From assembly GCA_001029295.1 (NCBI GenBank), contig LDXJ01000057.1, positions 1 through 64,000 on the forward strand: DNA of 64,000 bases, in the 5' to 3' direction. The position numbers and the translations under genes were made by a program. The notes beneath the pieces are model-generated. The model made no database searches. It was not told the origin of the DNA and saw only the letters and a list, made by a program, of their open reading frames with translations. This document shows, piece by piece, positions 3,991-22,949 of this stretch. Within the stretch, counting starts at the first letter, position 1. The number at the start of each line of letters is the position of its first letter. This stretch comes from Peptococcaceae bacterium CEB3. GTDB lineage: Bacteria > Bacillota > Desulfitobacteriia > Desulfitobacteriales > Desulfitobacteriaceae.

Positions 3991-4136
3991 AATTAGAGGA
4001 AACAGGCGAAGAAAAAAGCTTGAGCGCCAAGGAAGAGAAGCTCTTGCTGAATGTCATCAGGGATCAGGTTGAAGCGGCTCGGATAGAAAGGGAACTAACC
4101 CTGCAGTCGCGAACCCCCTTTAGGGGTTGCCAGTAA
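3981..4136 (+). pseudogene. Possible gene remnant, open frame without start
   Basis: An open frame of 51 codons ends in TAA and reads GKFELEETGEEKSLSAKEEK, continuing with LLLNVIRDQVEAARIEREL, a charged, helix-like composition. It has no plausible start and lies at the point where trailer 1 diverges from trailer 2, so it may be the tail of a gene cut by a deletion. No family is recognised. It could also be chance coding. Confidence 0.25.
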
Positions 4137-4426
4137 CAGTGACTTGGGAAACCACGCCTGTAGGCATTGTCTGGAAAAAGCCGTTACAGGGCTAAAATTA
4201 AGTCACCTTTGAAGGGGTGGTTTTCGTGACTTGTGCCTATAAATTCCGAAAACCCCAAATTTCCCATTGCAACTTGAAGGAATTAGGTTTTTTTTGTAGA
4301 AACGTCTTTGTAGAAAAGATAAAAGAGATAGAGCGCCGCCAGGAATTAGGCGGAGTAAGCTGTTTGCTGTCGGCGTGATGTCAAGGGCTTAGGGATGATC
4401 TTTTCTCTGATTGAGGAGGTGTTCAT
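4112..4426 (+). promoter_or_regulatory. Cmr operon upstream region with nested inverted repeats
   Basis: This stretch holds no gene. It contains a small hairpin AACCCC/GGGGTT (4112-4128) and three copies of one heptamer: GTGACTT at 4139, its complement AAGTCAC at 4200, and GTGACTT at 4226. The middle copy can pair with either outer copy, so two exclusive hairpins are possible. CCTGTA/TTACAGG and CCGCC/GGCGG add more pairing. A weak promoter-like pair (TTGTAG, 18 nt, GATAAA) lies near 4295-4325. The cmr1 ribosome binding site GAGGAGGT is at 4413-4420. An attenuator or a small inserted element would both fit. Confidence 0.4.
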
Positions 4427-5347
4427 TTGGTTAATCTCGATTTCCAATGCCGCACCGTGTCTCCTTTGTTCCTTTACGGAGCGGGGTCCACGGCGCTGGA
4501 GCTTCGCCCGCCCTCCTTTAAAGGAATGTTGCGCTTTTGGTGGCGGGCGGCACAGGCGGAAGACAATATTGCTGACCTAAGGAGACGGGAGGGAGAAATC
4601 TTCGGCGGCACGGGTAAGGGGGAGGGCAAGAGCAGCTTTTCTCTCCGTATTAGGAGCGGGCCCGTTAACGGCGAAAACAGGGCTTTGCTTCCCCACCACG
4701 ATGATCCGTGCTGCCCTAACACCCGGCAGCCAAGACCTAAGGCTATTGTTAACCATTCATTTCACCTGATCTTGTCCTACCGAAGTTTGCCCCGAGAGTT
4801 CGCGCCGGAGAAGCTGCGAGCTCTGGTTGAGCTTTCCTCGTTACTGGGGGGTTTAGGAAAAAGAAGTCGCAGGGGTTTCGGCTGCTTTCAAATCGTGGCG
4901 TTCAATGGCGGGGCTTTCGGGCTTGAAACTCTAACAGACCGTGATTCTCTTCAGAAAGCGATTTTAGAACGACTGAATTTTCTCTCAGGAGATAAGTACG
5001 AGGTCAGTCGTGAAATTATCTGCCTGCGGAAAGAATGTGCTGGGAATTACCCCTATATCCAAGAAATTCGATTAGGGGAGAGTACGAAAAATGTTGATGC
5101 CTATCTAACGAGGGTCGGGTGCAGTTCACACAGACATGACTGCGACTTTACGGGCATGGGTGGTTCAAGCGGGCGCTTAGCGTCGCCTGAGTACGTGTCA
5201 TTAGTACAGGCGGGTGGAATTATTTGGCCCGTGATTACGTCTCTCAATCCAGTATTTGATCCAAAGAGAAAGCAGACAGCAATCAAGAGCAAGGATTACA
5301 GAGGGGATTTTCGGGCAGAGATTCTGCGGGGAGCGGTAGAAACGTGA
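4427..5347 (+). CDS. cmr1: Type III-B RAMP protein Cmr1 (Cas7 group)
   Basis: Cmr1 caps the Cmr effector complex near the 3' end of the crRNA-target duplex and helps capture the target RNA. The 306-residue protein has the family signature PPSFKGMLRFWWRA at residues 28-41 and a glycine-rich RAMP segment LLGGLGKRSRRGFG near residue 140, followed by a beta-rich C-terminal RAMP fold. The start is TTG at 4427, chosen because GAGGAGGT lies 6 nt upstream and the next residues VNLDFQCRT match the usual Cmr1 first strand. It is the first gene of the operon; its TGA stop overlaps the GTG start of the next gene (GTGA), so the two are translationally coupled. Confidence 0.93.
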   Translation: MVNLDFQCRTVSPLFLYGAGSTALELRPPSFKGMLRFWWRAAQAEDNIADLRRREGEIFGGTGKGEGKSSFSLRIRSGPVNGENRALLPHHDDPCCPNTRQPRPKAIVNHSFHLILSYRSLPREFAPEKLRALVELSSLLGGLGKRSRRGFGCFQIVAFNGGAFGLETLTDRDSLQKAILERLNFLSGDKYEVSREIICLRKECAGNYPYIQEIRLGESTKNVDAYLTRVGCSSHRHDCDFTGMGGSSGRLASPEYVSLVQAGGIIWPVITSLNPVFDPKRKQTAIKSKDYRGDFRAEILRGAVET

Positions 5348-7110
5348 AAGAGTACTTATTTTTGTTTAGCATTACTCCGGTGCAACGCTTTATAGCCCAA
5401 GCACGCAAGACTCAAGATCTATTCGCCGGAAGCGACCTCCTCTCCCACTTTTGCCGGAGGTGCCTATCCACGGTACAAGAGCGCTATCACGGCGGGATCA
5501 TTTTCCCATCGCCGGAGTTGGAGTCTTTACCTAACCGGTTCTTAGTCGTTCTGGAGGGTGAAAGCGAAGAGACGATTAAAGAAATAGGCAGGCGGCTTGA
5601 GGAAGAACTACGATCGGAGCTGCGTGAGATTGCCCGCACAATTCTGGATTCGCTTCATTTACCGGAACCGGAGGGTTTCTGGTTGCAGGCGGAAGACTAT
5701 TTTCGGTTTTTCTGGGCGTTTGATTCTTTGGAGCGCGGGTATGAACAGGCTTACCGTACGGTTGAACGCCTTCTGGGACAAGCGAAAAGCGTACGCCCCT
5801 TTAAGCAGCCGTTGGAGGAACCGGGACGTAAATGCTCACTGACCGGAGAGGATAATGCTTTGTTTTATCGGAGCAAGGGGGGACCTTGGCATGATCTCTC
5901 CAAGAAGGCCTTGAGAATCCCCCCGGGGGTGCCCGTGAAGTACATGGCCGAGGGGGAAGCCCTCGGTGCCATCGGATTTATCAAGCGTTGCGCCGAGCTG
6001 TACCCGCGAGACGGGGCTTACGGGGCGGAACGGAGAAGCCATTCCTTTCCCTCCACCTGCCGCATCGCTTTGAGTGACGCGTTTTTGAAATTGGCGGAGA
6101 AGGCCCCATCGCTAGGGGACGAGGTAAAGGGGGATTTTGACGAGGAACTCATCCTCTACTTTAAGAACGAAGCGGCTGATCCGAAAGGAGAAATGCCTCA
6201 GCCGACGGACAGGGAGTCAAGAACTGACTGGGGGAAGGCGTGGGATATCTACACTCGCCTAGAGAATTATGATATTTCATATTCTCCGTACTATGCCATT
6301 TTGGTTTTCGATGGGGACAGTATGGGTAAGTGGCTGTCCGGACAAAGGCTGGCGCAGGGGGTCGCCTTGCGGGACTTTCACCGTGAATTAAGCAGAGCGC
6401 TCTCGCGGTTCGCCCGCCGGGCCGGCAAAGAAATACTCATCGAGCACCTGGGGGTAACAGTTTATGCCGGGGGAGATGATTTCCTGGGGCTGGTCAATCT
6501 GTCTTCTTTGATGAAGGTTCTCAAGGAGTTAAGGAGTGAGTTTGACCGATTGGATTTCTCCGCCTTTAGCGCCGATAAGTTAACTTTCTCGGCCGGTGTG
6601 GCAATCGCCCATTATAAGACACCATTGGGCATTGCGCTCAACTGGGCTCGCCAAATGGAAAAAGAAGCGAAGGATCCCAGGAGCGGTAAGGATGCCTTAG
6701 GGTTGGCGGTCGTTAAACATTCAGGGGAAACGGTTAAAACGGTCAGCCCGTGGCGTGTAGGAGAGGGAAGGTCGCTTCCTGACGATATTCAATTGATTCT
6801 GGAAAACCTCGAGAAGGATTTCTCGAACACGTTTATCACTACTTTTGGCCGTGAATTTCGGCTCCTGGTCCAAGAACGGGATACCCAAGATAACACTCGA
6901 GGATATCTTGATGGGATGGTCCAAAGTGAGTTGAAGCGGTTGATCCATCGATCCTACTCAGGGAAAGAGGAAGACAAGAAGAGCCGCTGTGATTTGCTTT
7001 GGGAGGTGCTCTGTCGGGACTATTTTCACTTGAAACGCCTGGATAGATTCCTCGACTTTTTGGAAGTCGTACGCTTTTTGAGCAGGGAGGTGGTACCACA
7101 TGCTACTTAG
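5344..7110 (+). CDS. cas10: Cas10/Cmr2, cyclase-type large subunit lacking HD domain
   Basis: Cas10 is the large subunit of the Cmr complex; on target RNA binding its palm domain makes cyclic oligoadenylates that activate CARF proteins. The 588-residue chain begins directly with the Cmr2 N-terminal domain (FLFSITPVQRFIAQARKTQD), so the usual N-terminal HD DNase is absent; a full Cmr2 with HD is about 800-900 residues. The palm has DGD at 323-325 and YAGGDDF with GGDD at 376-379, so metal-binding cyclase residues are intact. A CSLTGE segment near residue 163 may belong to a zinc-binding site. The GTG start overlaps the cmr1 stop and the end overlaps cmr3 by 11 nt. Inference: immunity depends on RNA cleavage and second messenger signalling, not on Cas10 DNase activity. 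Confidence 0.95.
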   Translation: MKEYLFLFSITPVQRFIAQARKTQDLFAGSDLLSHFCRRCLSTVQERYHGGIIFPSPELESLPNRFLVVLEGESEETIKEIGRRLEEELRSELREIARTILDSLHLPEPEGFWLQAEDYFRFFWAFDSLERGYEQAYRTVERLLGQAKSVRPFKQPLEEPGRKCSLTGEDNALFYRSKGGPWHDLSKKALRIPPGVPVKYMAEGEALGAIGFIKRCAELYPRDGAYGAERRSHSFPSTCRIALSDAFLKLAEKAPSLGDEVKGDFDEELILYFKNEAADPKGEMPQPTDRESRTDWGKAWDIYTRLENYDISYSPYYAILVFDGDSMGKWLSGQRLAQGVALRDFHRELSRALSRFARRAGKEILIEHLGVTVYAGGDDFLGLVNLSSLMKVLKELRSEFDRLDFSAFSADKLTFSAGVAIAHYKTPLGIALNWARQMEKEAKDPRSGKDALGLAVVKHSGETVKTVSPWRVGEGRSLPDDIQLILENLEKDFSNTFITTFGREFRLLVQERDTQDNTRGYLDGMVQSELKRLIHRSYSGKEEDKKSRCDLLWEVLCRDYFHLKRLDRFLDFLEVVRFLSREVVPHAT

Positions 7111-8185
7111 ACTTGAAGCGCTGGATCCCCTCTTTTTCCGAGACGGGAAGCCCTTTGCGATGGGAGAGGATTTTTGGGCGGAGGGAGTTTTTCCACCCTT
7201 TCCATCAGTCTTTTACGGGGCCCTGCGTACGGCGTTTTTTGCCGAGAATCCTGCGCTTTTACCGGCCGCGGGGAGTGATACGGATCCCACTCGGAGCTTA
7301 CGCATTCGCTCCATCCTTCTCATGAACGGGGAAACGATTTATTTTCCCTGCCCACTCGATTTGGTGAAGGATAAAGAAGAGACAGAGGATAAAAGGGCGT
7401 ACCCTTTGCAGCTGTCTCCTGCCGCCGAGTGCTCCAGCTACAAACTGCCGTTTGCTTTAGCCGTACCGGAGGGCCTGGAGGCAGAGACGCTGAGCGGGGC
7501 ATTGCTCGAACGCATGACCTTTGGGGACTATCTGTCAGGCTCATGGGAAGCGCAACCCTATCGCTTAGTGTCGGAATTTGTGACGGAAGAGCCGAAGGTC
7601 GGTATTGCCATAGATCGATTACGCCGCCACGCGGAGGAGCACAAATTGTACCGCATTGGGATGAAGCGCCTTGCTCCGGACCGTACCAAGGGGGCTGCGG
7701 CTGAGGAGACGTCCTTTCTTCTGGATTATGAAGGTCTGCAACTGCCGGAGAAGGGATTCATCAGGCTGGGCGGGGAAGGTAAAGTGGCCAGCTATGAGAG
7801 GGTGGATCGCGTCTGGATTCCCCAACCGCCGCTGCTCAAGGAAAAGCGCTTTAAACTATACGTGCTGACACCGGCCGTTTTGACCAACGGTTGGTTGCCC
7901 GAATGGCTGGACGAAAGAGGTCTGACCGGGAACTACCAGGGATTGTCCCTCAGGCTGCTGAGTGCGGCTATCGATAAGTATGTTCCGGTGGGCGGTTTCA
8001 ACATCAAAGAGAACAGACCCAAGCCTATGAGGCGGGCGGTGCCCGCCGGCAGTGTCTATTATTTCGAACTGCTGGCAGGCGATTTAGAGCGCGTGCCTGA
8101 GGTCTTTCACTATCAGCCGCTCGAGGACAATGCCTACAGCCGGGAAGGGTTTGGCAGGGTATTGCTGGGAGGAGTGGGGGCATGA
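7100..8185 (+). CDS. cmr3: Type III-B RAMP protein Cmr3 (Cas5 group)
   Basis: Cmr3 binds the 5' repeat-derived handle of the crRNA and joins Cas10 to the Cmr4 backbone. The 361-residue protein opens with LLRLEALDPLFFRDGKPF, typical of Cmr3, followed by the FPPFPSVFYGALRTA segment and a C-terminal glycine-rich stretch (YSREGFGRVLLGG). The ATG lies inside the end of cas10 (11-nt overlap) and is preceded by GGGAGGTGG. The stop overlaps the next ATG (ATGA). Confidence 0.93.
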   Translation: MLLRLEALDPLFFRDGKPFAMGEDFWAEGVFPPFPSVFYGALRTAFFAENPALLPAAGSDTDPTRSLRIRSILLMNGETIYFPCPLDLVKDKEETEDKRAYPLQLSPAAECSSYKLPFALAVPEGLEAETLSGALLERMTFGDYLSGSWEAQPYRLVSEFVTEEPKVGIAIDRLRRHAEEHKLYRIGMKRLAPDRTKGAAAEETSFLLDYEGLQLPEKGFIRLGGEGKVASYERVDRVWIPQPPLLKEKRFKLYVLTPAVLTNGWLPEWLDERGLTGNYQGLSLRLLSAAIDKYVPVGGFNIKENRPKPMRRAVPAGSVYYFELLAGDLERVPEVFHYQPLEDNAYSREGFGRVLLGGVGA

Positions 8186-9366
8186 AGAGGATAATAACGA
8201 CGGTTGGCACGTCACTGTTTACGAACTACGACGCCGAACGCAAGGACATGAAGGACCACCTGGCGAAGCTTAAAGGGATGCGGCACAGTCGCTGGAAGGA
8301 AAATCAAGAGCGTATCGATCTGGTCCGCAAAGCTGTGGCGCACTGGATGTCGGGGAAGCGAAGCGCTTCTGCCGAAATCAGCAGCATATTGAAGCTAAAA
8401 GAACAATTCGCGGAGGTTGGTGAAGTTCGCTTCCTATGCAGTGATACGATTGAATCTAGGTTGGCCGCGGAACTTGTTCAGGAGTACTTTACCCTTCAAG
8501 AAGGAGTCAAGGTTCTCTTTGACGCCGCTGCAGATGTAATTAGGGGTTTACAGGTCGAGGATGCTCGCGTTTTTGCCCAAGAGGGCATCATTAATCTGGT
8601 TAAGCGCTTTGGTGCTTTAGCCGGGGAATATGGCGAGTTTTTTACAGGTGATTTGTTGTTAAATATCACCGGCGGTTACAAAGGGACAATTCCCTACTTG
8701 ACCCTTCTTGGCCAGGTCTATAACATCCCGATATACTACCTTTTTGAAGATACCGATGCGCTTCTGAAGATTCCGCAGGCACCCGTCGACATCTATTGGG
8801 GTCTCTTCGCTAAATATAGCGAGTTATTTAAGGAATTAGAAAAAGGCGTGGAAGTGAGTTGGGACGACTACAAGCGCTTTCATGCCATCGAGGATGATTT
8901 CAGCTCATGTATTGAAGAGATCAGCGAAAACGGGACAGGCCTGATTGCCCTGAATGCGGTGGGAATGATGTTTTGGCAGAGGTTTCAGTCGTTCTTCGTC
9001 GTGTACCTGCCGCGTGGGGGAAAGTATTGGGACGAAGAGAAGACGAGGAAAAAGGAACTGCAGCAATCACTGCAAAGGCTCTATAAGAGGTTGAAGGATT
9101 TAGGGGATAACGGGATTGCCCTGGAGTCTTACCAGGACGAGGAATTGATTCACGCCAAAGTAAAAGATAGTTTTGTCTTCAAGGATTCCTCCGGACGCTT
9201 CAGAATTCAGTACAAACCGTCAGGGGAAAGCCTGAAGGTCTACAACTATTTCTACATAGACGATAATTCCATAGATAAACTCTATTCCAAACGGATGGAA
9301 GAGCAGTATGACGACCTGAAAAGAGCTAAGTTTGACCCAATTGTTCTGCAAAAGCCGCGTTTTTGA
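8182..9366 (+). CDS. CARF-domain protein, candidate CARF-RelE-like effector
   Basis: A 394-residue protein with an N-terminal CARF domain, which senses cyclic oligoadenylate made by Cas10. Visible CARF marks are TTVGTSLFTN at residues 6-15, a Rossmann-like alternation, and NITGGYKG at 161-168. The C-terminal 110 residues include LIHAKVKDSFVF (His324), then FRIQYK and YNYFYIDDNS, a pattern reminiscent of RelE/ParE-type toxins as in CARF-RelE proteins (Cami1), but this match is by eye and not secure. The gene sits inside the cmr operon between cmr3 and cmr4, with ATGA overlap upstream and 21 nt to cmr4, so it should be made in step with the complex. Alternatives: a ring nuclease or an unrelated effector domain. 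The CARF part is firm; the effector part is inference. Confidence 0.8.
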   Translation: MKRIITTVGTSLFTNYDAERKDMKDHLAKLKGMRHSRWKENQERIDLVRKAVAHWMSGKRSASAEISSILKLKEQFAEVGEVRFLCSDTIESRLAAELVQEYFTLQEGVKVLFDAAADVIRGLQVEDARVFAQEGIINLVKRFGALAGEYGEFFTGDLLLNITGGYKGTIPYLTLLGQVYNIPIYYLFEDTDALLKIPQAPVDIYWGLFAKYSELFKELEKGVEVSWDDYKRFHAIEDDFSSCIEEISENGTGLIALNAVGMMFWQRFQSFFVVYLPRGGKYWDEEKTRKKELQQSLQRLYKRLKDLGDNGIALESYQDEELIHAKVKDSFVFKDSSGRFRIQYKPSGESLKVYNYFYIDDNSIDKLYSKRMEEQYDDLKRAKFDPIVLQKPRF

Positions 9367-9387
9367 TAAGAGAGAGGGGATAAGACC

Positions 9388-10383
9388 ATGTACAAACTGG
9401 CAAAACCCATTTTCCTGTTTTGCGAGTCGCCGGTCCATGCCGGGAGCGGCAGCGACCTTGGCATTGTGGATTTACCTATCCAACGAGAGCGCCATACCGG
9501 TTTTCCGAAGATTGAAGGTTCAGGGCTCAAAGGAGGCTTGCGCGACGCCTTCGAACGCAATGAGAAGTTATGTTTTCAAGAACGCGAACTGGAGAAAGAG
9601 GAAAGGCAGAAGAGCCTGTCACTCGTCTTCGGGCCGGATAAGGGCGGAGAGTATGCCGCGGCTCTGGGTTTAACCGATGCGCGGGTTTTGCTGTTTCCGG
9701 TGCGATCCGTCAAAGGGGTTTATGCTTGGGTCACGTGCCCGCAGGTATTGGAGAGGTTTAAAAACGATCTGCTCTTTGCTGGCATTAACGTAGTCTGGGA
9801 CGTACCGGAGGTGAAGTCGACGCCGGACGGGTGTTCCCTGTACGCAGATCAAAAACGCGCAGACGAAAAACGCGTTGAGGGAAAGTTCGCTGCCGAAAAG
9901 GAAGGGAAAATTATCCTGGAGGAATACACTTTTGACGCTGGGCCCGACGCCACCTGCAGCCAACTGGCAAGTTGGCTCGCAGACGCTATTTTGCCGGCGA
10001 AGCCCTCTTTTGACTACCTGCGCAGTAAGATGAAGCGGGACCTGCTGGTTCTCAGTGATGACGATTTTCGCGACTTTGTGCAAATGTCGACGGAAGTGGT
10101 AACTCGGACGAAAATCGACGAAAAGACCGGCACGGTTCAGAAGGGAGCACTTTTTACGGTCGAATACCTGCCGGCGGAAACTGTTCTTTACTCGCTTGTC
10201 TTGGCGGCACCGGTTTTCAACGATCAGAAAGGCCTTTTCACGGATGGGGAAAGGGCGGTTCTAAGATTTTTCCGACAGAATCTGCCGTCCATAGTACAGA
10301 TTGGCGGGGACGCAACGATTGGCAAGGGGCTGGTACGCCTCGAAGGCGATCTCTTGGAGGTGAAGGACCATGGCGAAGGCTGA
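9388..10383 (+). CDS. cmr4: Type III-B RAMP protein Cmr4 (Cas7 backbone, target RNase)
   Basis: Cmr4 forms the repeated backbone along the crRNA and cuts the bound target RNA at 6-nt steps. The 331-residue protein has the diagnostic start FLFCESPVHAGSG, then DLGIVDLPIQRERHTGFPKI and GSGLKGGLRDAF. Asp28 in VDLPIQRE probably corresponds to the loop aspartate needed for RNA cleavage in characterised Cmr4; the residue equivalence is inferred. The C-terminal IGGDATIGKGLVRL is the usual Cmr4 glycine-rich motif. The ATG is preceded by GAGAGGGGATAAG. It overlaps cmr5 by 14 nt. Confidence 0.95.
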   Translation: MYKLAKPIFLFCESPVHAGSGSDLGIVDLPIQRERHTGFPKIEGSGLKGGLRDAFERNEKLCFQERELEKEERQKSLSLVFGPDKGGEYAAALGLTDARVLLFPVRSVKGVYAWVTCPQVLERFKNDLLFAGINVVWDVPEVKSTPDGCSLYADQKRADEKRVEGKFAAEKEGKIILEEYTFDAGPDATCSQLASWLADAILPAKPSFDYLRSKMKRDLLVLSDDDFRDFVQMSTEVVTRTKIDEKTGTVQKGALFTVEYLPAETVLYSLVLAAPVFNDQKGLFTDGERAVLRFFRQNLPSIVQIGGDATIGKGLVRLEGDLLEVKDHGEG

Positions 10384-10813
10384 AGACAGGATTTCGCTCG
10401 TTGAGCAGGGCCGTGCCGCGCGGGCTTATGAGATGGTGCAAGAAGCGAAAGAGGCCTTGGGGGCGGATGAAAAGAAATACAAATCCTATGTCAAGAAGAT
10501 TCCCATGCTGATCAAGACGAACGGTCTGGCGGCCACACTGGCTTTTATTCTCTCGAAAACCGGAGGAAATTCTAAGGAGGATTCCGACAGAAAGTCAAAA
10601 GGAAAAACACCGTATGGCCGGATCTATAGTCAAATCGCGGATTGGTTAAAGGAGAAGGAACTATTGACGGGAGAGACGGATTTGGTTCAAGAGATTATCA
10701 GCCTGTCGTCTGCGAAATACCGGTCAGTTACGGCGGAGGTGCTCGCCCTTTTTAGTTGGCTCCGTCGCTTTGCCGAAGGTTTGATTGAGGGTGAAGTTGA
10801 AGATGACACGTAA
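10370..10813 (+). CDS. cmr5: Type III-B small subunit Cmr5 (Cas11)
   Basis: Cmr5 is the small helical subunit that stacks along the inner filament of the complex. The 147-residue all-helical sequence contains the family segment VKKIPMLIKTNGLAATLAF (about residues 41-59), a polar linker (SKEDSDRKSKGK), and a final helix YRSVTAEVLALFSWLRRFAEG. GGAGGTGAAGG precedes the ATG within the end of cmr4. The stop overlaps the start of cmr6. Confidence 0.93.
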   Translation: MAKAEDRISLVEQGRAARAYEMVQEAKEALGADEKKYKSYVKKIPMLIKTNGLAATLAFILSKTGGNSKEDSDRKSKGKTPYGRIYSQIADWLKEKELLTGETDLVQEIISLSSAKYRSVTAEVLALFSWLRRFAEGLIEGEVEDDT

Positions 10814-12089
10814 AAAGCTAAGGATACTAAACATTTCCTATGAGCGGGGGAAAGGCATTATACTCGGTAACGATAGCAAGAAATACAGCTTTGATTTAGC
10901 CTCGGAGAGTAATCAGCTAAAGAACCAACTCACCAGGGGCGTGGAAGTGGAGTTCACCGTGGTGCGGGAAGGAAATCCGTGCCAGGTCAGCTCTGTCAAC
11001 ATTTGCCCGGTGGAGAGGGCCCCGGCATATGACGATGGACGTTATGAGAAGGGGTTTCCATCGCTTGAGACAAAAGAGGCTCCGCGCGCTGGCCAACACA
11101 GGAGGGACGCCGAGGCTGGGCCAAGCATGAATCAGAGGAACCCCAGTAACCGGAGTCTGAATAACAATCAAGGAAGGCGGGAAACGGCAACTTCCTCATC
11201 CGAGACGCGGAATGTCCCCCGATATATCCCACAGGACACAAGGGAGCTTCTGGAGAAAAGGGAAGTTCGCTTCGAGAATTATTACTTGCAGTTGAATAAA
11301 TTTCCCCTTGTTTATAAGGATGAGAAGAAGAAGAAGGAATCGTTCAGCTTCTTTGCCCAGGGTAATCAAAGGACACCGGTTGTCGAAAATTTTAAACCCT
11401 TCTTCTCTCCTTGCCGCTTGACACAAATTGCGGCGCGGCAGCAGGAAACCATTCAGGACTTGGGTTTCGAAACTGTAAGTTTCACGGCTAGACCGGAGTG
11501 GAGGCTGGTGGTTGGCTTGGGCGGCGCTTCTGTTTATGAAACCTCCATGACGTTGCATCATATCTATGGCTTTCCTTATCTTCCCGGAAGCGCTGTGAAA
11601 GGAGTAACCCGCTCCTGGCTCCTCGCTGAATATTTTGCCGGTGAGGAGGGAACAGAGGGGGAGGAGGCTGGGCAAGAAGGGGCCCGGCCGGGTAAAGCCG
11701 GACAAGACGAAGGGTTGATGCGTCTCTTCGGGGGCAAGGGAAAGGAGCAGACCCGGAAGGGAGACGTTATTTTCTTTGATGCGCTCCCACTGGCAGATCC
11801 TGACATCGAAGTCGACGTGATGACTCCACACAACTCGGAATATTATGGTTCAAAGAATAAACCCCCAGCCGATTACTACGAGCCGGTCCCTGTTCATTTT
11901 CTCACGGTGGGAAAGAAGACAGAGTTCCGCTTTACCTTGGCTATTCGCAAAGAGGACAATGTTGAAATAGGATCCGGCCGCTTTGCCGGCAGGACTGTTT
12001 TGGAAGTGGCGCGCACGGGGCTGGAAAGAGCGCTAAAAGAACAGGGCATAGGGGCCAAGACCGCGGTCGGCTACGGGCTCATGTCCTGA
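10803..12089 (+). CDS. cmr6: Type III-B RAMP protein Cmr6 with N-terminal OB/cold-shock-like domain
   Basis: Cmr6 is a Cas7-group subunit near the 3' end of the crRNA. The RAMP part (about residues 150-428) has YGFPYLPGSAVKGVTRSW, MRLFGGKGKEQ and the C-terminal GAKTAVGYGLM. In front lies an unusual 70-residue segment (YERGKGIILGNDSKKYSFDL, then TRGVEVEFTVV and VSSVNI) that resembles a cold-shock/S1 OB fold, followed by a 70-residue polar linker. At 428 residues it is longer than a plain Cmr6. I prefer ATG 10803, 8 nt after GAGGGTG, over the in-frame TTG at 10785; it overlaps the cmr5 stop by 11 nt. The OB assignment is by pattern only. Confidence 0.92.
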   Translation: MTRKKLRILNISYERGKGIILGNDSKKYSFDLASESNQLKNQLTRGVEVEFTVVREGNPCQVSSVNICPVERAPAYDDGRYEKGFPSLETKEAPRAGQHRRDAEAGPSMNQRNPSNRSLNNNQGRRETATSSSETRNVPRYIPQDTRELLEKREVRFENYYLQLNKFPLVYKDEKKKKESFSFFAQGNQRTPVVENFKPFFSPCRLTQIAARQQETIQDLGFETVSFTARPEWRLVVGLGGASVYETSMTLHHIYGFPYLPGSAVKGVTRSWLLAEYFAGEEGTEGEEAGQEGARPGKAGQDEGLMRLFGGKGKEQTRKGDVIFFDALPLADPDIEVDVMTPHNSEYYGSKNKPPADYYEPVPVHFLTVGKKTEFRFTLAIRKEDNVEIGSGRFAGRTVLEVARTGLERALKEQGIGAKTAVGYGLMS

Positions 12090-12157
12090 TGTCTTTTTGA
12101 TGTGTTAAGCAAGAAGTTTAGTCGTATGCCCCGGGCTTTGACCGCAGGGCTTTAGCC

Positions 12158-12382
12158 ATGGGGAAGTTCGGAGAGGTGCGCACGTTGTGCGCCAGGCTTT
12201 GGAGGAACAGCGGGCGAGAAGCAAAGAAGTCGCGGGTATTTTGGGGGAACCTGTTGGCATCTTTTCGGCGGACCGTCCGGGAGTGGCAAAAAGCTATCGG
12301 CCAGCTTGAGGGTTTGACGATAGGAAAAGGGAAGACAAAGGAGGTTGGCATTGGAAGAAGAGAATTTGGAGAGACAAGGTGA
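12158..12382 (+). CDS. Possible small basic protein
   Basis: A 74-codon frame between cmr6 and the CARF-HEPN gene encodes a basic peptide rich in Arg, Lys, Gly and Trp (WQKAIGQLEGLTIGKGKTK). No good ribosome binding site precedes its ATG, and its end overlaps the next gene by 32 nt. No family is recognised. Overlapping minus-strand frames of similar length show that chance is possible. This otherwise uncoded 260-nt gap may simply be spacer DNA. Confidence 0.22.
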   Translation: MGKFGEVRTLCARLWRNSGREAKKSRVFWGNLLASFRRTVREWQKAIGQLEGLTIGKGKTKEVGIGRREFGETR

Positions 12383-14180
12383 TAAAGGAAAGGTCTTGCT
12401 CACGTCATTGAGTCCCTATCCGCGTAAGACGAGGTACCGTTTGGGTAATCAGGTCGTTGAAGCAGAGCAATCTCCTCTTGCCTTGCTGCTGGCCTTGCCG
12501 GTCGAAGAAAGGCCGCGGGAAATTATTATACTTTGCACCGCCAAGGTGCTTGAAGAGGGGCAATTGGCTGCCGTGCAAGATCGAGTTTCGGCTCTGCCGC
12601 CCGTCGGCGTACCCGTACCGAAGGTGATGCCACTGCACATTCCTGACGGTAAAAATGAGGAGGAAATTTGGGAAATCCTCGGGTTGGTTTTAGAGAAGGT
12701 AACGCCGAATTGCCGGTTGATTCTTGATCTGACGCACGGATTTCGCTCCTTCTCTTTCCTCTTTTTTACTGCGGCGCTCTATTTGAAGGCCTTACGGAAT
12801 GTCGAGATAGAATCCGCCTATTACGGCATGTTGGAAAGCCCGGGTGATGAAAAGCCCCTTTTGGACATTTCGGTCATTCTGGATATGATCGAATGGTTCT
12901 ATGCCGTGCGGACCTTTCGCGAGACGGGGCAAGCGGGCAATATTGTCAAGTTGCTCGAACCGTTCGGTGTTCGTCCCGCTGGAGTGCAAGGGAGGGCCTG
13001 CCAACCGTACGATGAAACCAGAAAGTTGATTAAAGACTTTGAAGAGGCGTCGAGGGCTTTTGACCAGAACCTGCCCATCGAATTTGGCCGTGGGGCTGCG
13101 GGGCTCTATCGCCATTTACAAGAATCTCAAGCGGAGCATTTGTTGGCTAAAATACCCTTGCCGAAAGAACTTTTCTCACAGATACTAACTTCCGTGGAAC
13201 CTTTCCGTTTACCGAGCTTAAGAGGGGATAAAACGCAGCAAGTACTCGATCGAGCCGAACTGGACCGTCAAGCACGTTTAGTTGATCGTTATTTTGAACA
13301 GGGACACCTTAATAACGCCCTCGGTTTGGCCCGAGAATGGACTGTTTCTGCGGCCATGTTTGAGAAAGCCCGGGGGCAGGGGCTGGAGGCGGTAGAAGGC
13401 AAACAGTGGCTGAACCATAAAGGAGAGGAAGGAAGGTTCTCGGTCGAATACCATCTCAACCATTTGGCCAGTTTCTTGGAAGGGAAGAAGGATATACTGA
13501 CTAATAAGCAGTGCTGGCTGGCCGAACGTTGGTCTTTTATCCGGGACAAACGCAACGACTTATATCATTTAGGTTTCAACAAAAACTCAGTGCTGTTGAA
13601 TGAAAGGGATACCGAGACCTTTTTCACCTACTGGTGCGAGTTGAGGGATTCTCTCGACGACCTGCAAAAGTGGGATTTGGACGTCGCTCAAGGAGCTCAG
13701 ACCTTGCTCATAAGTCCGTTGGGTAACTCAGCGGGGCTTTTGTACACGGCACTCTGTAAGGTCCGCCCCGACTACCTTTTCATCTTAGCTTCCCCAGCCA
13801 GTGTACTCAAGCTCGGGGAAATTATGGACAAGGCCGAATGGCGCGGGTCTGTGAAGAGCTTTCTTTTGCAGGACCCTTTTGCTGGGTTTGATGAAGGGAA
13901 AGAGCGCGTGCGGGAAATGCTCGCTGAGTTGAAGGGACACTCTGACGTCGGCCATTTGGTAATCAATCTGACAGGCGGAACGACTGTGATGCAGCTTTTA
14001 ATTCAGGCTGTTGCTCACAGTAAGGCGTTGGGAGGGAGAGCGGTCGAACAGGTCGCTTTCGTCGACCGCCGTCCCATAGCGGACCAGCAGGGAGATCCGT
14101 ATGTCGTGGGAGAAATGATTAGATTAAGCGAATATACGCCGGATGAACCACGAGCGCATAACCCCGGCGTCACCCCGTAG
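12351..14180 (+). CDS. CARF-HEPN-CARF protein, predicted cOA-activated RNase
   Basis: A 609-residue protein with three recognisable parts. The N-terminal 200 residues resemble TM1812-family CARF proteins (KVLLTSLSPYP, EIIILCTAKV, LILDLTHGFRSF, YYGMLE). The central helical region carries WSFIRDKRNDLYHLGF, in which R401-x4-H406 is the HEPN ribonuclease motif. The C-terminal part (from about 445) starts TLLISPLGNSAGLLYTAL and has HLVINLTGGTTVMQ near 540, a second CARF-type ligand-binding motif, then VEQVAFVDRRP. Known Csx1/Csm6 proteins have one CARF and one HEPN. TTG 12351 is chosen because AAAGGAGG ends 6 nt upstream. It follows cmr6 by 261 nt. Inference: a cyclic oligoadenylate-activated RNase, with the second CARF either sensing or degrading the ligand. 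Confidence 0.85.
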   Translation: MEEENLERQGDKGKVLLTSLSPYPRKTRYRLGNQVVEAEQSPLALLLALPVEERPREIIILCTAKVLEEGQLAAVQDRVSALPPVGVPVPKVMPLHIPDGKNEEEIWEILGLVLEKVTPNCRLILDLTHGFRSFSFLFFTAALYLKALRNVEIESAYYGMLESPGDEKPLLDISVILDMIEWFYAVRTFRETGQAGNIVKLLEPFGVRPAGVQGRACQPYDETRKLIKDFEEASRAFDQNLPIEFGRGAAGLYRHLQESQAEHLLAKIPLPKELFSQILTSVEPFRLPSLRGDKTQQVLDRAELDRQARLVDRYFEQGHLNNALGLAREWTVSAAMFEKARGQGLEAVEGKQWLNHKGEEGRFSVEYHLNHLASFLEGKKDILTNKQCWLAERWSFIRDKRNDLYHLGFNKNSVLLNERDTETFFTYWCELRDSLDDLQKWDLDVAQGAQTLLISPLGNSAGLLYTALCKVRPDYLFILASPASVLKLGEIMDKAEWRGSVKSFLLQDPFAGFDEGKERVREMLAELKGHSDVGHLVINLTGGTTVMQLLIQAVAHSKALGGRAVEQVAFVDRRPIADQQGDPYVVGEMIRLSEYTPDEPRAHNPGVTP

Positions 14181-14238
14181 CCAGTGCGGAGGTTTGACAA
14201 CCCGACTACCTGGTGTTATAGAGATAATAAGTGACGCA

Positions 14239-14345
14239 GAATACAAGTCATACAGAATACTGGTAATAAGTCTCCAGGAATACCGGTTGCAGAGTACTAG
14301 CCTTACAGAGTACCAACCACGCGGAATACCGATCATACAGAGTTT
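14239..14345 (+). repeat. GARTAC direct-repeat cluster, 14-16 bp spacing
   Basis: The hexamer GAATAC or GAGTAC appears at 14239, 14255, 14278, 14292, 14308 and 14324, with a degenerate GAGTTT at 14340. Most copies are preceded by CA or CG and follow a 16-bp step, with one 23/14 pair that together nearly fits. This lies just after the CARF-HEPN gene and just before a small gene. A decayed minisatellite or a multi-site operator would both fit; a 16-bp step is about one and a half helical turns. Confidence 0.6.
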
Positions 14346-14372
14346 TACAAAGCCTGATAAGGTCGGAAGGGG

Positions 14373-14621
14373 GTGTTGTATCTCTTTAAGGTCGGCCCTG
14401 TTGAGCTTTCCGACGGGACGGGTGTGCTCCCGGGGATTGTCGATCTTCTTGAAGAAGGCGCGGCCTTGGGCAAAAGCGTGCTCGAAGCGACGGGCAGTGA
14501 CGTAGCGGCTTTCTGCGACGATCTAATCAAGGATTTAAGAACTTACGCTGACATCTATCAGGAGTCTGTTGACCAAAAAGTTTACAAGGCCATAAAGAAG
14601 GATACGGATAAAAACAGGTAA
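14373..14621 (+). CDS. Small acidic protein of unknown function next to CRISPR leader
   Basis: An 82-residue protein with a GTG start preceded by GGTCGGAAGG. It is acidic with amphipathic helices (LPGIVDLLEEGAALGKSVLE, then DDLIKDLRTYADIYQESV) and a basic tail. No family is recognised. Directly downstream, in the same frame after two stops, a further 59 codons stay open, so the original gene may have been longer. It lies between the last CRISPR effector gene and the array 2 leader. Confidence 0.55.
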   Translation: MLYLFKVGPVELSDGTGVLPGIVDLLEEGAALGKSVLEATGSDVAAFCDDLIKDLRTYADIYQESVDQKVYKAIKKDTDKNR

Positions 14622-14648
14622 AAAGGGGAGAGGGGAACACACTACTAG

Positions 14649-14828
14649 AAGTCCGTATTCAGGGGACATATCACTCCTGCAAATTACCTTGAACTGAAAG
14701 CGAAGCTAAGGAGCGCCATCGAGCTACGACACGACTTTGTAGCCTTTATTCGAATGCTCGGCGAATATTCGTTCTACGAAGAAAGCCTGGGTAACCCCGG
14801 GGTCGATCCGGAGGCAACTATCATTTGA
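14649..14828 (+). pseudogene. Startless coding remnant before array 2 leader
   Basis: Following TAG at 14646, a 59-codon frame reads SVFRGHITPANYLELKAKLR, then SAIELRHDFVAFIRMLGEYS, and ends in TGA inside the leader promoter. It is in the same frame as the 82-residue gene upstream, separated from it by TAA and TAG, and lacks ATG, GTG or TTG near its start. It is likely the 3' part of a broken gene; alternatively it uses a non-standard start after GGGGAGAGGGG. Confidence 0.35.
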
Positions 14829-15007
14829 CTTTTTCCAACCGGGGCTGTATAGTCATGCTGTTGAGTGCCCGAGTGTAGCGGGTTGTAGGGACAGCAGCCA
14901 GATATTTTCGAAATGGGCAAGCACTTGGAAAAACGCTCGCTAAAGCCGCTTGTACCGCGCAATCGAGGGTTTTCCGAGGGACGCGAGGGCGCTGTTCGTC
15001 TTGGCGG
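14825..15007 (+). promoter_or_regulatory. Array 2 leader with consensus promoter
   Basis: TTGACT at 14825-14830 and TATAGT at 14848-14853 are separated by exactly 17 nt, a near-consensus sigma-A promoter pointing into array 2. Transcription should begin near 14860, about 150 nt before the first repeat at 15008. The leader is not AT-rich, unlike many CRISPR leaders. It fits the orientation deduced from the decayed repeat at the far end. Confidence 0.75.
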
Positions 15008-18000
15008 GCGGAACCTTCACATTGGATGTATTGAAATTTCAGCCACCCTTTATGGATGCTGAAATCATTAAAGGCGGAACCTTCACATTGGATGTATTGA
15101 AATCCTTGTCAGTCGATGTGTTCGCCATGTTACAACAGCGGAACCTTCACATTGGATGTATTGAAATTCCCGTCCTGGAAGAACAATGGGCCATTGGAGA
15201 GGGGCGGAACCTTCACATTGGATGTATTGAAATTGATATCTGTAGCCGTTCGTGGCATTCTGCTCATCCGCGGAACCTTCACATTGGATGTATTGAAATG
15301 TTGACGAAGTGGAGGATATACTAGACCTGGACTCGCGGAACCTTCACATTGGATGTATTGAAATACGATGAGTACGATTACGAGTACAAGTCGCCTAAAT
15401 CGCGGAACCTTCACATTGGATGTATTGAAATTACATATTCTGGAGGAAGCGATCATACTTCTGCTTGCGGAACCTTCACATTGGATGTATTGAAATGAGA
15501 TCGCATTGTTGGGCCTCAGTATACGGTCATTGCGGAACCTTCACATTGGATGTATTGAAATAATCCTCACCAAACGCCCAGAAAGAATGCGCCAATAGCG
15601 GAACCTTCACATTGGATGTATTGAAATCTTTCTCGGGCCGGCTTATCACCTGGGCGAACCCTCGCGGAACCTTCACATTGGATGTATTGAAATTCAACCT
15701 TCCCGTTGGCTTCCGTAAGTGCCGCAGCTGCGGAACCTTCACATTGGATGTATTGAAATGGTAATCGAGTATACATTTCCGGTACAGTATGGGTGCGGAA
15801 CCTTCACATTGGATGTATTGAAATGTGCATGAAGGCTATGCCGTGATGCTGGAGGAAATGGGCGGAACCTTCACATTGGATGTATTGAAATAAGGAGATG
15901 ACGCAGAAGTGAAAAAGATATTCATGCGGAACCTTCACATTGGATGTATTGAAATTCGTGCTCCAGAAGGATCTTAGAAAACTGTTCTGCGTGCGGAACC
16001 TTCACATTGGATGTATTGAAATCTTCTTCCGGGCAGGTCTTGCGTATCAGGTGCCATAGCGGAACCTTCACATTGGATGTATTGAAATTTTTGAAAACTT
16101 GCGTATTTTCTGTTTACATTAGCGGCGGAACCTTCACATTGGATGTATTGAAATTGTCTATTCGAGATCAAGTGCGGGCGCGGGATCACGCGGAACCTTC
16201 ACATTGGATGTATTGAAATTATCCAGGAGCGGGATTGGTCAAGGATTATAAGGGGGCGGAACCTTCACATTGGATGTATTGAAATGCGTCAAGCGGTGAT
16301 AGAGCCGACTACCGGCCGCCAGCGGAACCTTCACATTGGATGTATTGAAATGGTAACTTCCGGACGATTTCGGCAAACAGCTTGGCCGCGGAACCTTCAC
16401 ATTGGATGTATTGAAATTCTTAACTGCGGATGCCGTGAACGTTCTAGCTACGCGGAACCTTCACATTGGATGTATTGAAATTTTTGAAGGTCCGCATCTT
16501 CAGTTGAAGCCACGCCTGCGGAACCTTCACATTGGATGTATTGAAATTCGCCCAAACAGAGGGAGCGGTCCGGCAAAATATCGGCGGAACCTTCACATTG
16601 GATGTATTGAAATTTTTTTTCCACCCCACCACAAGTTGTCCGCGACTTCGCGGAACCTTCACATTGGATGTATTGAAATGGCATACAACGAGATCTACCA
16701 GAAATGCTTCTTTTAGCGGAACCTTCACATTGGATGTATTGAAATATATCACTGCGGCTTGGGTAAACGCGTGGCAATACGCGGAACCTTCACATTGGAT
16801 GTATTGAAATAAGCTGCGGGCGAATTAAGCATGAAACCTTCGACAGCGGAACCTTCACATTGGATGTATTGAAATTTCCAATTCCCATTCTGACCAGTTC
16901 TTCTCGATGCGGCGGAACCTTCACATTGGATGTATTGAAATCCGGTTGGGGTGGTCCGTTGAAGGAAAGGTGACAGAGCGGAACCTTCACATTGGATGTA
17001 TTGAAATAGAAAAGAGGCCAACGAATGGGCAAAGGGCAGTGCGCGGAACCTTCACATTGGATGTATTGAAATTCAACCTTCCCGTTGGCTTCCGTAAGTG
17101 CCGCAGGCGGAACCTTCACATTGGATGTATTGAAATATGCCACGACCGGACTCTCCGCAAATCTGCAGTCCCGCGGAACCTTCACATTGGATGTATTGAA
17201 ATAGGGGAACCGTATTGATATTTGGATGCCGACGTAGCGGAACCTTCACATTGGATGTATTGAAATTTGAACGGGCCGTAAAACTGTGGAGTGCTCCAGG
17301 CGCGGAACCTTCACATTGGATGTATTGAAATAGGGAATGTACAGAGGGGCCGTCAGTGCGGATCTCGGCGGAACCTTCACATTGGATGTATTGAAATCTG
17401 TAGACGAAGCTGAACTCGGTGGGGTTTCCCCAGCGGAACCTTCACATTGGATGTATTGAAATTGCTGAAATCGCAGCAGAAAACCAATGCGGACATGGCG
17501 GAACCTTCACATTGGATGTATTGAAATAATATCTTATGTACAAGAAGTTACAGACCTTCTGGTGCGGAACCTTCACATTGGATGTATTGAAATGTGTAAG
17601 TTGGCAGTAACCAAAACCTTGATAACAACGCGGAACCTTCACATTGGATGTATTGAAATATTTGATGTTGCGAATGCTCCACCAGTTGAACCAGGGCGGA
17701 ACCTTCACATTGGATGTATTGAAATATTCGAATTTTTTCACAAGACATTCTCCTCTCTTCTGCGGAACCTTCACATTGGATGTATTGAAATGAAGTGGTC
17801 AAGCATCGGATGATTTAAGTTCGCGCGGAACCTTCACATTGGATGTATTGAAATTACACGAAGTACGGGTGTTTTGTTCCAAGGCCTTTTAGCGGAACCT
17901 TCACATTGGATGTATTGAAATCGATGATCGCCATGGAAATCAAGGGCGCCAAGGCCGCGGAACCTTCACATTGGATGTATTGAAATCGGGGGAACGTCGG

Positions 18001-21000
18001 GATGAGGGCGGTATGCGATCCGGCGGAACCTTCACATTGGATGTATTGAAATAGGCCAACGGATTCCGAAAGACCGGATATGCCCCCGGCGGAACCTTCA
18101 CATTGGATGTATTGAAATTAGGAGGGGGCTATATGAGCGGGAATGACCCAGAAGGCGGAACCTTCACATTGGATGTATTGAAATACAGATACGAAACCTA
18201 CAACGAATGTGCCGGGCGGGGCGGAACCTTCACATTGGATGTATTGAAATAAAAAGCGGCACAGATCTCCGGCGAACGATCCAGAGCGGAACCTTCACAT
18301 TGGATGTATTGAAATATCCTTTTTCAGTCAGTTGCCCTGCCCGTGCTGGCAGCGGAACCTTCACATTGGATGTATTGAAATCGCCGGGATTAGCCGCCCG
18401 GCTCGGCTTCTGGTCCGCGGAACCTTCACATTGGATGTATTGAAATCGCCTGAGAAGCGAGGATACTCCACAAAGACCATGCGGAACCTTCACATTGGAT
18501 GTATTGAAATTAATAAGGCCGACCGGCGGCCTTATCGTCTGCATTCGCGGAACCTTCACATTGGATGTATTGAAATCGGCTGACTGGTTGCCTGTGTTGG
18601 TCGCGGCTGACAGCGGAACCTTCACATTGGATGTATTGAAATCCGCTGACTGGTTGCCTGTGTTGGTCGCGGCTGACCGCGGAACCTTCACATTGGATGT
18701 ATTGAAATACGATTGTCGGAACCGCGTTTCCTCCTGCTTCTCCTGCGGAACCTTCACATTGGATGTATTGAAATAATTTAATGGACCGGCAAGCCCTATC
18801 GTGATGAAGCGGAACCTTCACATTGGATGTATTGAAATGAAGAAACCCAAGATAGAAACCGAGAATTGGAGAAGCGGAACCTTCACATTGGATGTATTGA
18901 AATAGGATGGATGTGGGAGAAGGTGTCTGTCCAACACTCGCGGAACCTTCACATTGGATGTATTGAAATATCTCGGAAGAGTACGATACATTTGCGGTCA
19001 ACAATCGCGGAACCTTCACATTGGATGTATTGAAATCGAAATGATTGCTCCAGATGAAGGTGCTCAAATATCGCGGAACCTTCACATTGGATGTATTGAA
19101 ATCATTGAGTATCCATCCTCCACTCTCGCGGCGACTGCGCGGAACCTTCACATTGGATGTATTGAAATTATACGTGCCTCCTCTGTGTATTCTTTCCATC
19201 AAAGCGGAACCTTCACATTGGATGTATTGAAATATGTGATTGTGTCCTACGAAGAACGTCCACCGATCCTGCGGAACCTTCACATTGGATGTATTGAAAT
19301 GCGGTAATGTCCCGGATAAACGTCTGGACGAGATTCGCGGAACCTTCACATTGGATGTATTGAAATTTTTAAAACATCTCCTTTATTTTCCTAACGCTAG
19401 GGCGGAACCTTCACATTGGATGTATTGAAATCTGGCTTACTGTTTCCTACCTGTTTTTACTTATTTAGCGGAACCTTCACATTGGATGTATTGAAATCGC
19501 AAAACCTCGATCCTGGCTAATGCCGCAAGTTTGCGGAACCTTCACATTGGATGTATTGAAATCTATTTGGGAAAATGTACCCGGATCTTTCAGTAGCAGC
19601 GGAACCTTCACATTGGATGTATTGAAATTTGAACCTATAGCTTTTAATGGGAGGCAAGATCCTAGCGGAACCTTCACATTGGATGTATTGAAATTTATTT
19701 GGACCGACAAGCTACCATGTCACAACCTGCGGAACCTTCACATTGGATGTATTGAAATTATAATCGCCATCCTTGTGGTGAACATCTTTCCCCAGGCGGA
19801 ACCTTCACATTGGATGTATTGAAATTATGTGGGAAATGTTTTGAGCTAACCTTGATTGGGCGGAACCTTCACATTGGATGTATTGAAATCTCAGCTAGTC
19901 TTTTCGATAGGTTTTTGGCAATCAGCGGAACCTTCACATTGGATGTATTGAAATCGCAAAGACTTTGCCAATGACCGGGTCGGTATAAATGCGGAACCTT
20001 CACATTGGATGTATTGAAATTTTCGAAGAAAAGCTTGATTGCTTGGATGTTGCCAGCGGAACCTTCACATTGGATGTATTGAAATAGTGCTGTTTTGTCA
20101 AGCTATGATTACTCGGGTATGGCGGAACCTTCACATTGGATGTATTGAAATGCATTTTCGAGGCGGTGAGGGCCTGGTCTGCCGACCGCGGAACCTTCAC
20201 ATTGGATGTATTGAAATTCGTCACTGTCTTCGTAGAGCACTTGGCCAATCTCGCGGAACCTTCACATTGGATGTATTGAAATCGTGATTCGCCAACAATC
20301 CCATTCTTTTGCCATAAAAGCGGAACCTTCACATTGGATGTATTGAAATACCCTCTTTTCAATATTTTTTAAGATTTTTTCTCTGCGGAACCTTCACATT
20401 GGATGTATTGAAATTCCACTTCCGCATATAGGGTGATTCCGGTTTCCAAGCGGAACCTTCACATTGGATGTATTGAAATTAATCGCTCTTGGCCGTTGCC
20501 CTGAACGTCACTCCGGCGGAACCTTCACATTGGATGTATTGAAATAACGGAAAGAAAGCTACGCCTCCGCCACGGAAATGGCGGAACCTTCACATTGGAT
20601 GTATTGAAATGACACTCAACCCTGCCAAGCAAAACATGTTTTTGCCGCGGAACCTTCACATTGGATGTATTGAAATCTCCCTCCGGGTCTTGGGTATCGT
20701 GAATTCAAATGCGGAACCTTCACATTGGATGTATTGAAATTACGCAAGCGAATGGTGGGTTCCGCTCACGAAGCGTGCGGAACCTTCACATTGGATGTAT
20801 TGAAATATGGTATGCCGGAGTAAATAATACCGGTTATAACCCGCGGAACCTTCACATTGGATGTATTGAAATAAACCTTCCCCGATTTCCTAAGCCACGA
20901 TCCCAGGCGGAACCTTCACATTGGATGTATTGAAATTAAGCAATTTTGTCTTTCTCGGTATCGCGGTTCCTCCGCGGAACCTTCACATTGGATGTATTGA

Positions 21001-22187
21001 AATGTATCAAACAGCTTCCCTCCAACAACTTTTTTCATCTGCGGAACCTTCACATTGGATGTATTGAAATAGGCAATATACTCTCTCCCCACCCCATATC
21101 CGACCCGCGGAACCTTCACATTGGATGTATTGAAATTCAACGAGCTCATGCCCAAGCAAAACGACGGCAACGCGGAACCTTCACATTGGATGTATTGAAA
21201 TAGGGCCGAGCATGGAACTGGGAATGCCGCTCAAAAGCGGAACCTTCACATTGGATGTATTGAAATCTAAACAACACAGACCAACCTAATACTACCGTAC
21301 CCGGCGGAACCTTCACATTGGATGTATTGAAATGACGGATAAATGCCAGACCACCGGTCCACAACCATGGCGGAACCTTCACATTGGATGTATTGAAATT
21401 TTTTGATTTCTCCTTCTTTTTCTATTTCATCCTGTGCGGAACCTTCACATTGGATGTATTGAAATCCGTGAGCCCATAGCCGGGCCGCGTGTATTATCAT
21501 AGCGGAACCTTCACATTGGATGTATTGAAATAATTGCAATTACTCGGGTATTTTCCAGTCGTCCATGCGGAACCTTCACATTGGATGTATTGAAATATAA
21601 TTTTTCGCATACTCCTACCACCTTTCATTTTTTGCGGAACCTTCACATTGGATGTATTGAAATGGGGCAGGTGCTGGCTTATCGGCCAGCGGGGCCTGGC
21701 GGAACCTTCACATTGGATGTATTGAAATGGTATCCATCTCGAGCTTCTAGGTATATGCCTTTCAGCGGAACCTTCACATTGGATGTATTGAAATGACGCT
21801 GAAGATGGACGACTTTGATGTCTACACATAGCGGAACCTTCACATTGGATGTATTGAAATCAGACCGTACAATCCGGAAAGGTATCCCGTCGAATCGCGG
21901 AACCTTCACATTGGATGTATTGAAATTAGGATTTAAAACTTAAAAGGAGAGAGAAGCACAAGCGGAACCTTCACATTGGATGTATTGAAATAGGTCTGGG
22001 TCCCAGACCGTGACGACGGCGAAGCAGCGGAACCTTCACATTGGATGTATTGAAATTTTCGCATCCTCCTTCTCGGTCTTCTCGTCCTCTGGGCGGAACC
22101 TTCACATTGGATGTATTGAAATCGGAGTTCAAGTAATCTTTTTCCAAAGACGTTATCGCGGAACCTTCACATTGGATGTATTGGCTT
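15008..22187 (+). CRISPR. CRISPR array 2, 110 repeats
   Basis: The same 30-nt repeat as array 1 occurs 110 times with spacers of about 34-38 nt. All copies looked identical except the last (22158), which is intact to GGATGTATTG and then continues GGCTTGAAAAT instead of closing with AAAT. The leader promoter is on the left, so new spacers should be near 15008. One spacer occurs twice (15694-15729 and 17073-17106, identical over 34 nt). Two neighbours (18577-18612 and 18643-18678) are near copies of each other. Several spacers match or overlap spacers of array 1. Confidence 0.98.
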
Positions 22188-22506
22188 GAAAATAAAATAC
22201 TCTGTGGAGAGAAAGTGGTGGGGCTACGCGTAAGAATTTCCTGAGAGCAGAGCCAAACCAGGGAGGAAAACCGAGAGCGGAGGCGAATTAAAGAAATGGC
22301 ACACCGGAAATAGGGATAGCAAAGCTAGGATCCCGATTGGCTTCGGATCCCATTGAGTCTCAGAACTCGTTAGGCTTGCTCGTAGCCCTATCCATCGGTC
22401 TGCTGTTTACGAGGGCGTCCCCGGCGGCGAGCGACAGGCTCCGTGGTCGTGGGGTGTTCTTTCTTATCGGAAGTTTTAACCGAACGCCGTTTCTTCGGAG
22501 CCAGTA
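22181..22506 (+). repeat. Array 2 trailer, homologous to the array 1 trailer
   Basis: Sequence from GGCTTGAAAAT onward matches the array 1 trailer for about 290 nt. No gene is seen here. On the minus strand this is the segment directly 3' of the IS110-family transposase remnant, so it may be the non-coding end of that element. The final TTTTAACCGAACGCCG to 22506 has no partner in trailer 1. Confidence 0.8.
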
Positions 22507-22929: not shown

Positions 22930-22949
22930 ATCGGCTGAGCGTGACCATT

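Follow-up and report, generated by a model that had tools for sequence, protein, structure and literature searches.

A type III-B CRISPR locus of Peptococcaceae bacterium CEB3 (contig LDXJ01000057.1; the window is the whole stretch of 64 000 nucleotides analysed, positions 1–64 000) raises the question of what a second CARF domain does in an effector that already has one. The last gene of the locus encodes a chain with an N-terminal CARF, a HEPN RNase domain and a further CARF at the C-terminus. The first-pass annotation, made from the sequence by itself, had proposed that this second CARF could make the enzyme self-limiting (a ring nuclease), sense a different cyclic oligoadenylate (cOA) or pair with the first CARF as an intramolecular pseudo-dimer.

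Locus and reading frame

The effector gene closes a complete type III-B (Cmr) set located between two CRISPR arrays, in the order cmr1, cas10/cmr2, cmr3, CARF7-RelE, cmr4, cmr5, cmr6, effector.

6–3707 (+ as given), CRISPR array 1, 57 repeats, running past the contig start (repeat search)
4427–5347 (+), cmr1 (family profile)
5344–7110 (+), cas10/cmr2, 588 amino acids, GGDD present, without an HD domain before Cmr2_N (ORF, family profile)
7100–8185 (+), cmr3 (family profile)
8182–9366 (+), CARF7-RelE effector, a second predicted cOA-activated RNase (PADLOC profile)
9388–10383 (+), cmr4 (family profile)
10370–10813 (+), cmr5 (family profile)
10785–12089 (+), cmr6 (family profile)
12337–12344 (+), ribosome-binding site AAAGGAGG
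12351–14180 (+), CARF-HEPN-CARF effector gene (ORF call, PADLOC profile PDLC01840, ribosome-binding site)
15008–22187 (+ as given), CRISPR array 2, 110 repeats, with the same repeat as array 1 (repeat search)

The start at TTG 12351 chosen in the first-pass annotation is supported by AAAGGAGG, which lies 6 nt upstream; the same site directly abuts an earlier TTG at 12345. The protein comprises 609 amino acids from TTG 12351 and 611 from TTG 12345. Residues are numbered here from TTG 12345 (the 12351 numbering plus two); in the 12351 numbering the motifs were found where they had been placed earlier (LDLTHGFRSF at 125–134, RNDLYH at 401–406 and NLTGGTTVMQ at 539–548).

Since Cas10 keeps GGDD and has no HD DNase, immunity at this locus probably depends for the most part on its two messenger-activated effectors, the CARF-HEPN-CARF protein and the CARF-RelE protein. 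The latter (8182–9366) carries Crn1-type motifs, VGTS near the N-terminus and TGGYK further on, and judging by these may itself degrade its own messenger.

The arrays have a 30 nt repeat in common and no duplicated spacer. Their flanks at 3772–3976 and 22262–22466 are 83% alike, and next to them the terminal repeats have degenerated. Two adjacent spacers (18577–18612 and 18643–18678) are near-identical, differing at few positions, which suggests spacer duplication or re-acquisition. A DUF1048 ORF between the effector and array 2 (14373–14621, +) matches only positions 34–101 of the 102 in its profile and is an N-terminally truncated remnant. An Rfam search of 3600–23000 gave no match.

Domain organization

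The following domains and motifs were assigned.

12384–12884 (+), N-terminal CARF (CARF2/TM1812/DxTHG type), residues 14–180 (family profiles, PADLOC, AlphaFold model)
12885–13229 (+), helical linker/HTH-like region, residues 181–295 (AlphaFold model; matches the CARF-HTH part of 8y75)
13230–13667 (+), HEPN RNase domain, residues 296–441 (profile, fold comparison, conservation)
13551–13568 (+), HEPN motif RNDLYH (R403, N404, H408; R-N-x3-H, fitting R-x4-6-H)
13692–14129 (+), C-terminal CARF (C-CARF), residues 450–595 (domain model, fold comparison)
13716–13736 (+), C-CARF motif I, PLGNSAG (G460, S462, G464), following strand 1
13965–13994 (+), C-CARF motif II, NLTGGTTVMQ (541–550), without Lys or Arg, following strand 4
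14064–14099 (+), C-CARF extra motif, DRRPIADQQGDP (D574, R576, Q581, P585), following strand 5

The earlier description of two CARFs in one chain was correct. The N-terminal domain, with LDLTHGFRSF at residues 127–136, scored 77.9 bits against TIGR02221 (curated cut-off 76.25), and the protein scored 33.5 against TIGR02549 (cut-off 21). The full-length AlphaFold model had a pLDDT of 88.5. In the 26 full-length proteins compared, R403 and H408 of the HEPN domain are kept in all and N404 in 25. The motifs of the effector exceed chance: a family cut-off is passed, PDLC01840 is matched and the HEPN residues are kept.

The structure prediction and fold search proposed in the first-pass annotation returned a CARF/Rossmann fold for the C-terminal region. 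Modelled alone, the C-CARF had a pLDDT of 93.5, and in the full-length model residues 450–598 also matched CARFs. The fold was compared using VIA-align, which covered only chains pre-ranked by Foldseek, and many CARF structures matched (Can2, Z = 15.2; TtCsm6, 14.1; Card1, 13.9; Sis0455, 12.3; Sso2081, 11.8; by PDB entry, 8bao_A, 15.2; 7z55, 12.3; 7ygh, 11.8). Profile matches to Can2 and Can1 sequences gave weaker support for a CARF. The two-helix C-terminal lid of Sso2081 and Sis0455 was not seen in the secondary structure of the C-CARF model, and PF08960 (DUF1874/Crn2) matched nowhere in the protein.

The N-terminal and C-terminal CARFs align with an hhalign probability of 89.5% at 20% identity and fall into different PADLOC groups, CARF2 for the former and weak CARF1 matches for the latter. 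By sequence they are distantly related domains of different clades.

Full-length relatives

The protein had been put forward as an undescribed effector. This did not hold: the CARF-HEPN-CARF architecture is known and catalogued. An architecture list of 2014 already included a two-CARF fusion (PMC4012209). PADLOC holds three models named 'CARF2--CARF_HEPN_CARF' (PDLC01840, 01839 and 01838), the first of which matches residues 13–596 over profile positions 2–545 of 547 (E = 5.5e-238, 789 bits). These names presumably follow the 2020 CARF superfamily classification. Relatives were sought with a profile in 398 genomes of the same phylum and by a motif scan in 84 980 species genomes. The latter added 25 full-length proteins, so that the layout is shared by many Csx1 proteins. 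By the titles as deposited, many of them metagenome bins, the hosts are Bacillota, Riflebacteria, Chloroflexota, Planctomycetota, Acidobacteriota, Binatota, Melainabacteria, WOR-3 and one Heimdallarchaeota bin. No experimental study of the architecture was found in the literature searched.

At locus L062 (7727–9486) the CARF-HEPN and CARF parts are in two overlapping ORFs, representing a split gene, a frameshift or an assembly error. Viral anti-CRISPR use of the C-CARF was considered and left no sign: neither IMG/VR viral contigs, searched with the C-CARF, nor phage records, searched with the whole protein, contained a relative. Plasmid matches covered only the Csx1 part of the effector.

Conservation of the C-terminal CARF

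Conservation is highest in the C-CARF, both among the 26 full-length proteins and in a smaller motif-independent set (alignment A1). The genome scan used the motif at residues 541–550, whose invariance in alignments A4 and A5 is therefore partly by construction, and conservation was recomputed without it. With these columns removed, the mean pairwise identity was 0.355 for the C-CARF, 0.314 for the N-terminal CARF and 0.273 for the HEPN domain, and the columns conserved at 90% or above made up 11.8, 4.8 and 6.2%, respectively. Of the 23 columns of the C-CARF conserved at 90% or above, about 16 are on or just past the ends of strands 1–5, at the edge of the sheet that faces the ligand (G460, S462, G464, S483, D510, N541, T543–T547, Q550, D574, R576, Q581 and P585), the predicted rim of the ligand pocket. 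In motif I (G460-N461-S462) the Gly is kept in 26/26 and the Ser in 24/26, and the Thr of the Crn1 G-T-S is lost. The TGGTT of motif II is present in all relatives, including those found by profile, and was partly ascertained by the search pattern.

Stand-alone C-CARF genes

The C-CARF also occurs as a stand-alone gene of 140–210 amino acids in nine genomes, in all of which a Cas10 palm domain was found (a weak match in one). In L040 (8977–9432) it begins 20 bp past a Csx1 gene, and the loci of L025 and of L038 (stand-alone gene at 5860–6312) also encode a Csx1. The L053 copy starts inside a Can2-like CARF-PDDEXK gene, overlapping its end by 4 bp, and a search with the fused-protein model found no Csx1 elsewhere in that genome. 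It lies near CARF-RelE in L035 and L024, the latter also with a CARF9-type HEPN protein; an absence of Csx1 from genome G087 was considered and rejected, as a CARF9-type HEPN protein is present there. On the tree of the C-CARF domain, six switches between fused and free forms were counted by parsimony, at least four of them forced by well supported branches, and in a close Pelotomaculum pair (80% identity) one genome has the free domain and the other the fused one. Neither Pfam nor NCBIfam nor PADLOC has a dedicated family for the free form, whose best PADLOC match is the tail of the fused models; it is a fresher lead than the fused protein.

Two stand-alone relatives from Abditibacteriota (L051, 9010–9444; L056, 8998–9432) are outside any cas locus and carry Ala where motif I otherwise has Ser. 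A DUF1848 protein repeatedly flanks the stand-alone gene (L024, 7747–8676; L025, 10330–11268; L038, 6341–7291); it is of the PADLOC RT-associated type in L024 and L025, and was so judged in L038 from its near-identical start. WYL proteins flank the gene in L024 and L025.

Proposed function and alternatives

The reading that we favour, with a probability of about 0.55, is a self-limiting Csx1 in which the chain that carries the RNase also carries a C-CARF that captures and slowly cleaves the messenger. On binding target RNA, Cas10 of the Cmr complex would make a cOA, probably cA4. This messenger would act on the dimerized N-terminal DxTHG CARF and switch on the HEPN RNase, which would cut RNA non-specifically. 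At a separate site, the C-CARF would take up the same messenger and cleave it slowly, such that one chain would set its activation threshold and turn itself off. Activation of the RNase by cOA and dimerization are predicted, as are cA4 as the ligand and its binding by the C-CARF; cleavage by the C-CARF is the most conjectural step.

The proposal draws on the analogy with Csx1-Crn2, an RNase with proven activation by cA4 whose C-terminal ring nuclease competes for cA4 and destroys it (PMC7293037). Fusion or adjacency to different cOA effectors correctly predicted the ring nuclease Crn4 (PMC12830947); the C-CARF is fused to or encoded near Csx1, a Can2-like nuclease or CARF-RelE, which favours a ring-nuclease module. 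In PADLOC the same CARF2-HEPN scaffold is also found with a C-terminal Csx3 (Crn3), Csx16 or Csx20, all three of them ring nucleases (PMC12409355). These tails, the switching between fused and free forms, the conservation of the C-CARF and the G-x-S that its motif I keeps where Crn1 has G-T-S all support a ring nuclease. Of the options first raised, self-limitation is the best supported, its catalytic part being a prediction.

Several observations stand against a ring nuclease. The C-CARF has TGGTT where motif II of Crn1 carries the Arg/Lys that matters for binding and turnover (PMC10018336), has lost the middle Thr of GTS and lacks the Crn1 lid; Can2 and Card1, which leave cA4 uncleaved, are among the nearest folds; and the free copies in L051 and L056 are outside cas loci. 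In some Csx1 enzymes the CARF or the HEPN domain itself degrades cA4 (PMC9704534), so a dedicated off module is not strictly needed. The absence of Csx3, Csx16 and Crn2 genes from the 28 carrier genomes is uninformative, as Csx3 (4/249) and Csx16 (0/249) are scarce across the phylum sample to begin with.

More tentatively, and at rather less than even odds, the C-CARF and its stand-alone relatives may form a ring-nuclease family of their own with an active site unlike that of Crn1. The candidate site consists of the conserved Ser and D-R-R-x4-Q-x3-P, without a motif-II Lys/Arg; D574-R575-R576 and Q581, past strand 5, could supply the charge of the absent residue. Such a family would have been shuffled between fusions and free genes, switching off several cOA effectors.

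A serious rival, which we nevertheless consider rather unlikely, is that the C-CARF binds the messenger without cutting it, either acting as a sponge or providing a second allosteric site to tune the threshold or cooperativity of HEPN activation. Conservation at the pocket edge suits binding as well as catalysis, and the missing basic residue of motif II and the non-cleaving CARFs of Can2 and Card1 as closest folds also fit; however, free copies beside unrelated effectors have no chain to regulate in cis, and a pure sponge at about 1:1 with the effector would do little.

That the two CARFs read different cOAs (such as cA4 for the N-terminal one and a different ring size for the C-terminal one), with the RNase integrating two signals, would suit their different clades and pocket motifs (DLTHGFR versus NLTGGTT...DRR). 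This is improbable, as effectors of different cOAs very rarely share one locus (PMC11229360); for the same reason, the CARF-RelE and the Csx1 of this locus probably answer the same signal.

CARF domains are usually dimeric, and the C-CARF might be a ligand-free dimerization scaffold. Its conservation falls on ligand-side loops, including the charged D574 and R576 and also Q581, free versions exist and Csx1 proteins without it are common relatives, all of which make a scaffold still less probable. An intramolecular pseudo-dimer, suggested by two CARFs per chain as Can1 and Csm6-2 operate, is very improbable given the different clades of the two domains (about 20% identity), the single HEPN domain compared with two in Csm6-2, the match of the N-terminal Csx1 part alone to dimeric Csx1 and the switching of the C-CARF between fused and free.

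Should the C-CARF break down the messenger, type III CRISPR would have a further built-in off switch, and a small free CARF that is now invisible to family libraries would become a recognizable regulator. More loci would then limit their own signal, which bears on whether recovery or cell death is the aim of the system. Fusion locks the sensor, the RNase and the off switch into a 1:1 ratio, making their balance directly measurable.

Comparison with known systems

The PADLOC CARF2--CARF_HEPN_CARF models have the same three domains in the same order, with no structural difference from the effector. Crn1 (Sso2081, Sis0455) resembles the C-CARF in its CARF fold (Z = 11.8–12.3), stand-alone size and, in part, motif I (G-x-S, without the Thr in the C-CARF); it has a motif-II Arg/Lys and a helical lid, which the C-CARF lacks, whereas the C-CARF has the extra DRR...Q...P motif. 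The CARFs of Can2 and Card1 are its closest folds (Z = 13.5–15.2) and among its best profile matches, but these proteins have a PD-(D/E)xK nuclease domain that is missing from the effector, and their motif-II Lys is Thr in the C-CARF. Csm6-2 (CARF-HEPN-CARF-HEPN) and Can1 also have two CARFs per chain; each is a duplicated effector that works as a single chain, whereas the effector here has one HEPN domain (two in Csm6-2) and two unlike CARFs, and its chain ends with the C-CARF.

The Csx1-Crn2 of Marinitoga piezophila (PDB entries 8y6z and 8y7g) has a C-terminal messenger module at a like place and is encoded in a type III-B locus with CARF-RelE. Its Csx1 half matches effector residues 13–441 (Z = 17.1 over 388 residues), the Csx1-Crn2 profile matches with E of about 3e-35 to 4.6e-35, and its H129, which is needed for cA4 binding, corresponds to H131. 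The two proteins differ in the C-terminal module, which is DUF1874/Crn2 in Csx1-Crn2 and a CARF in the effector described here.
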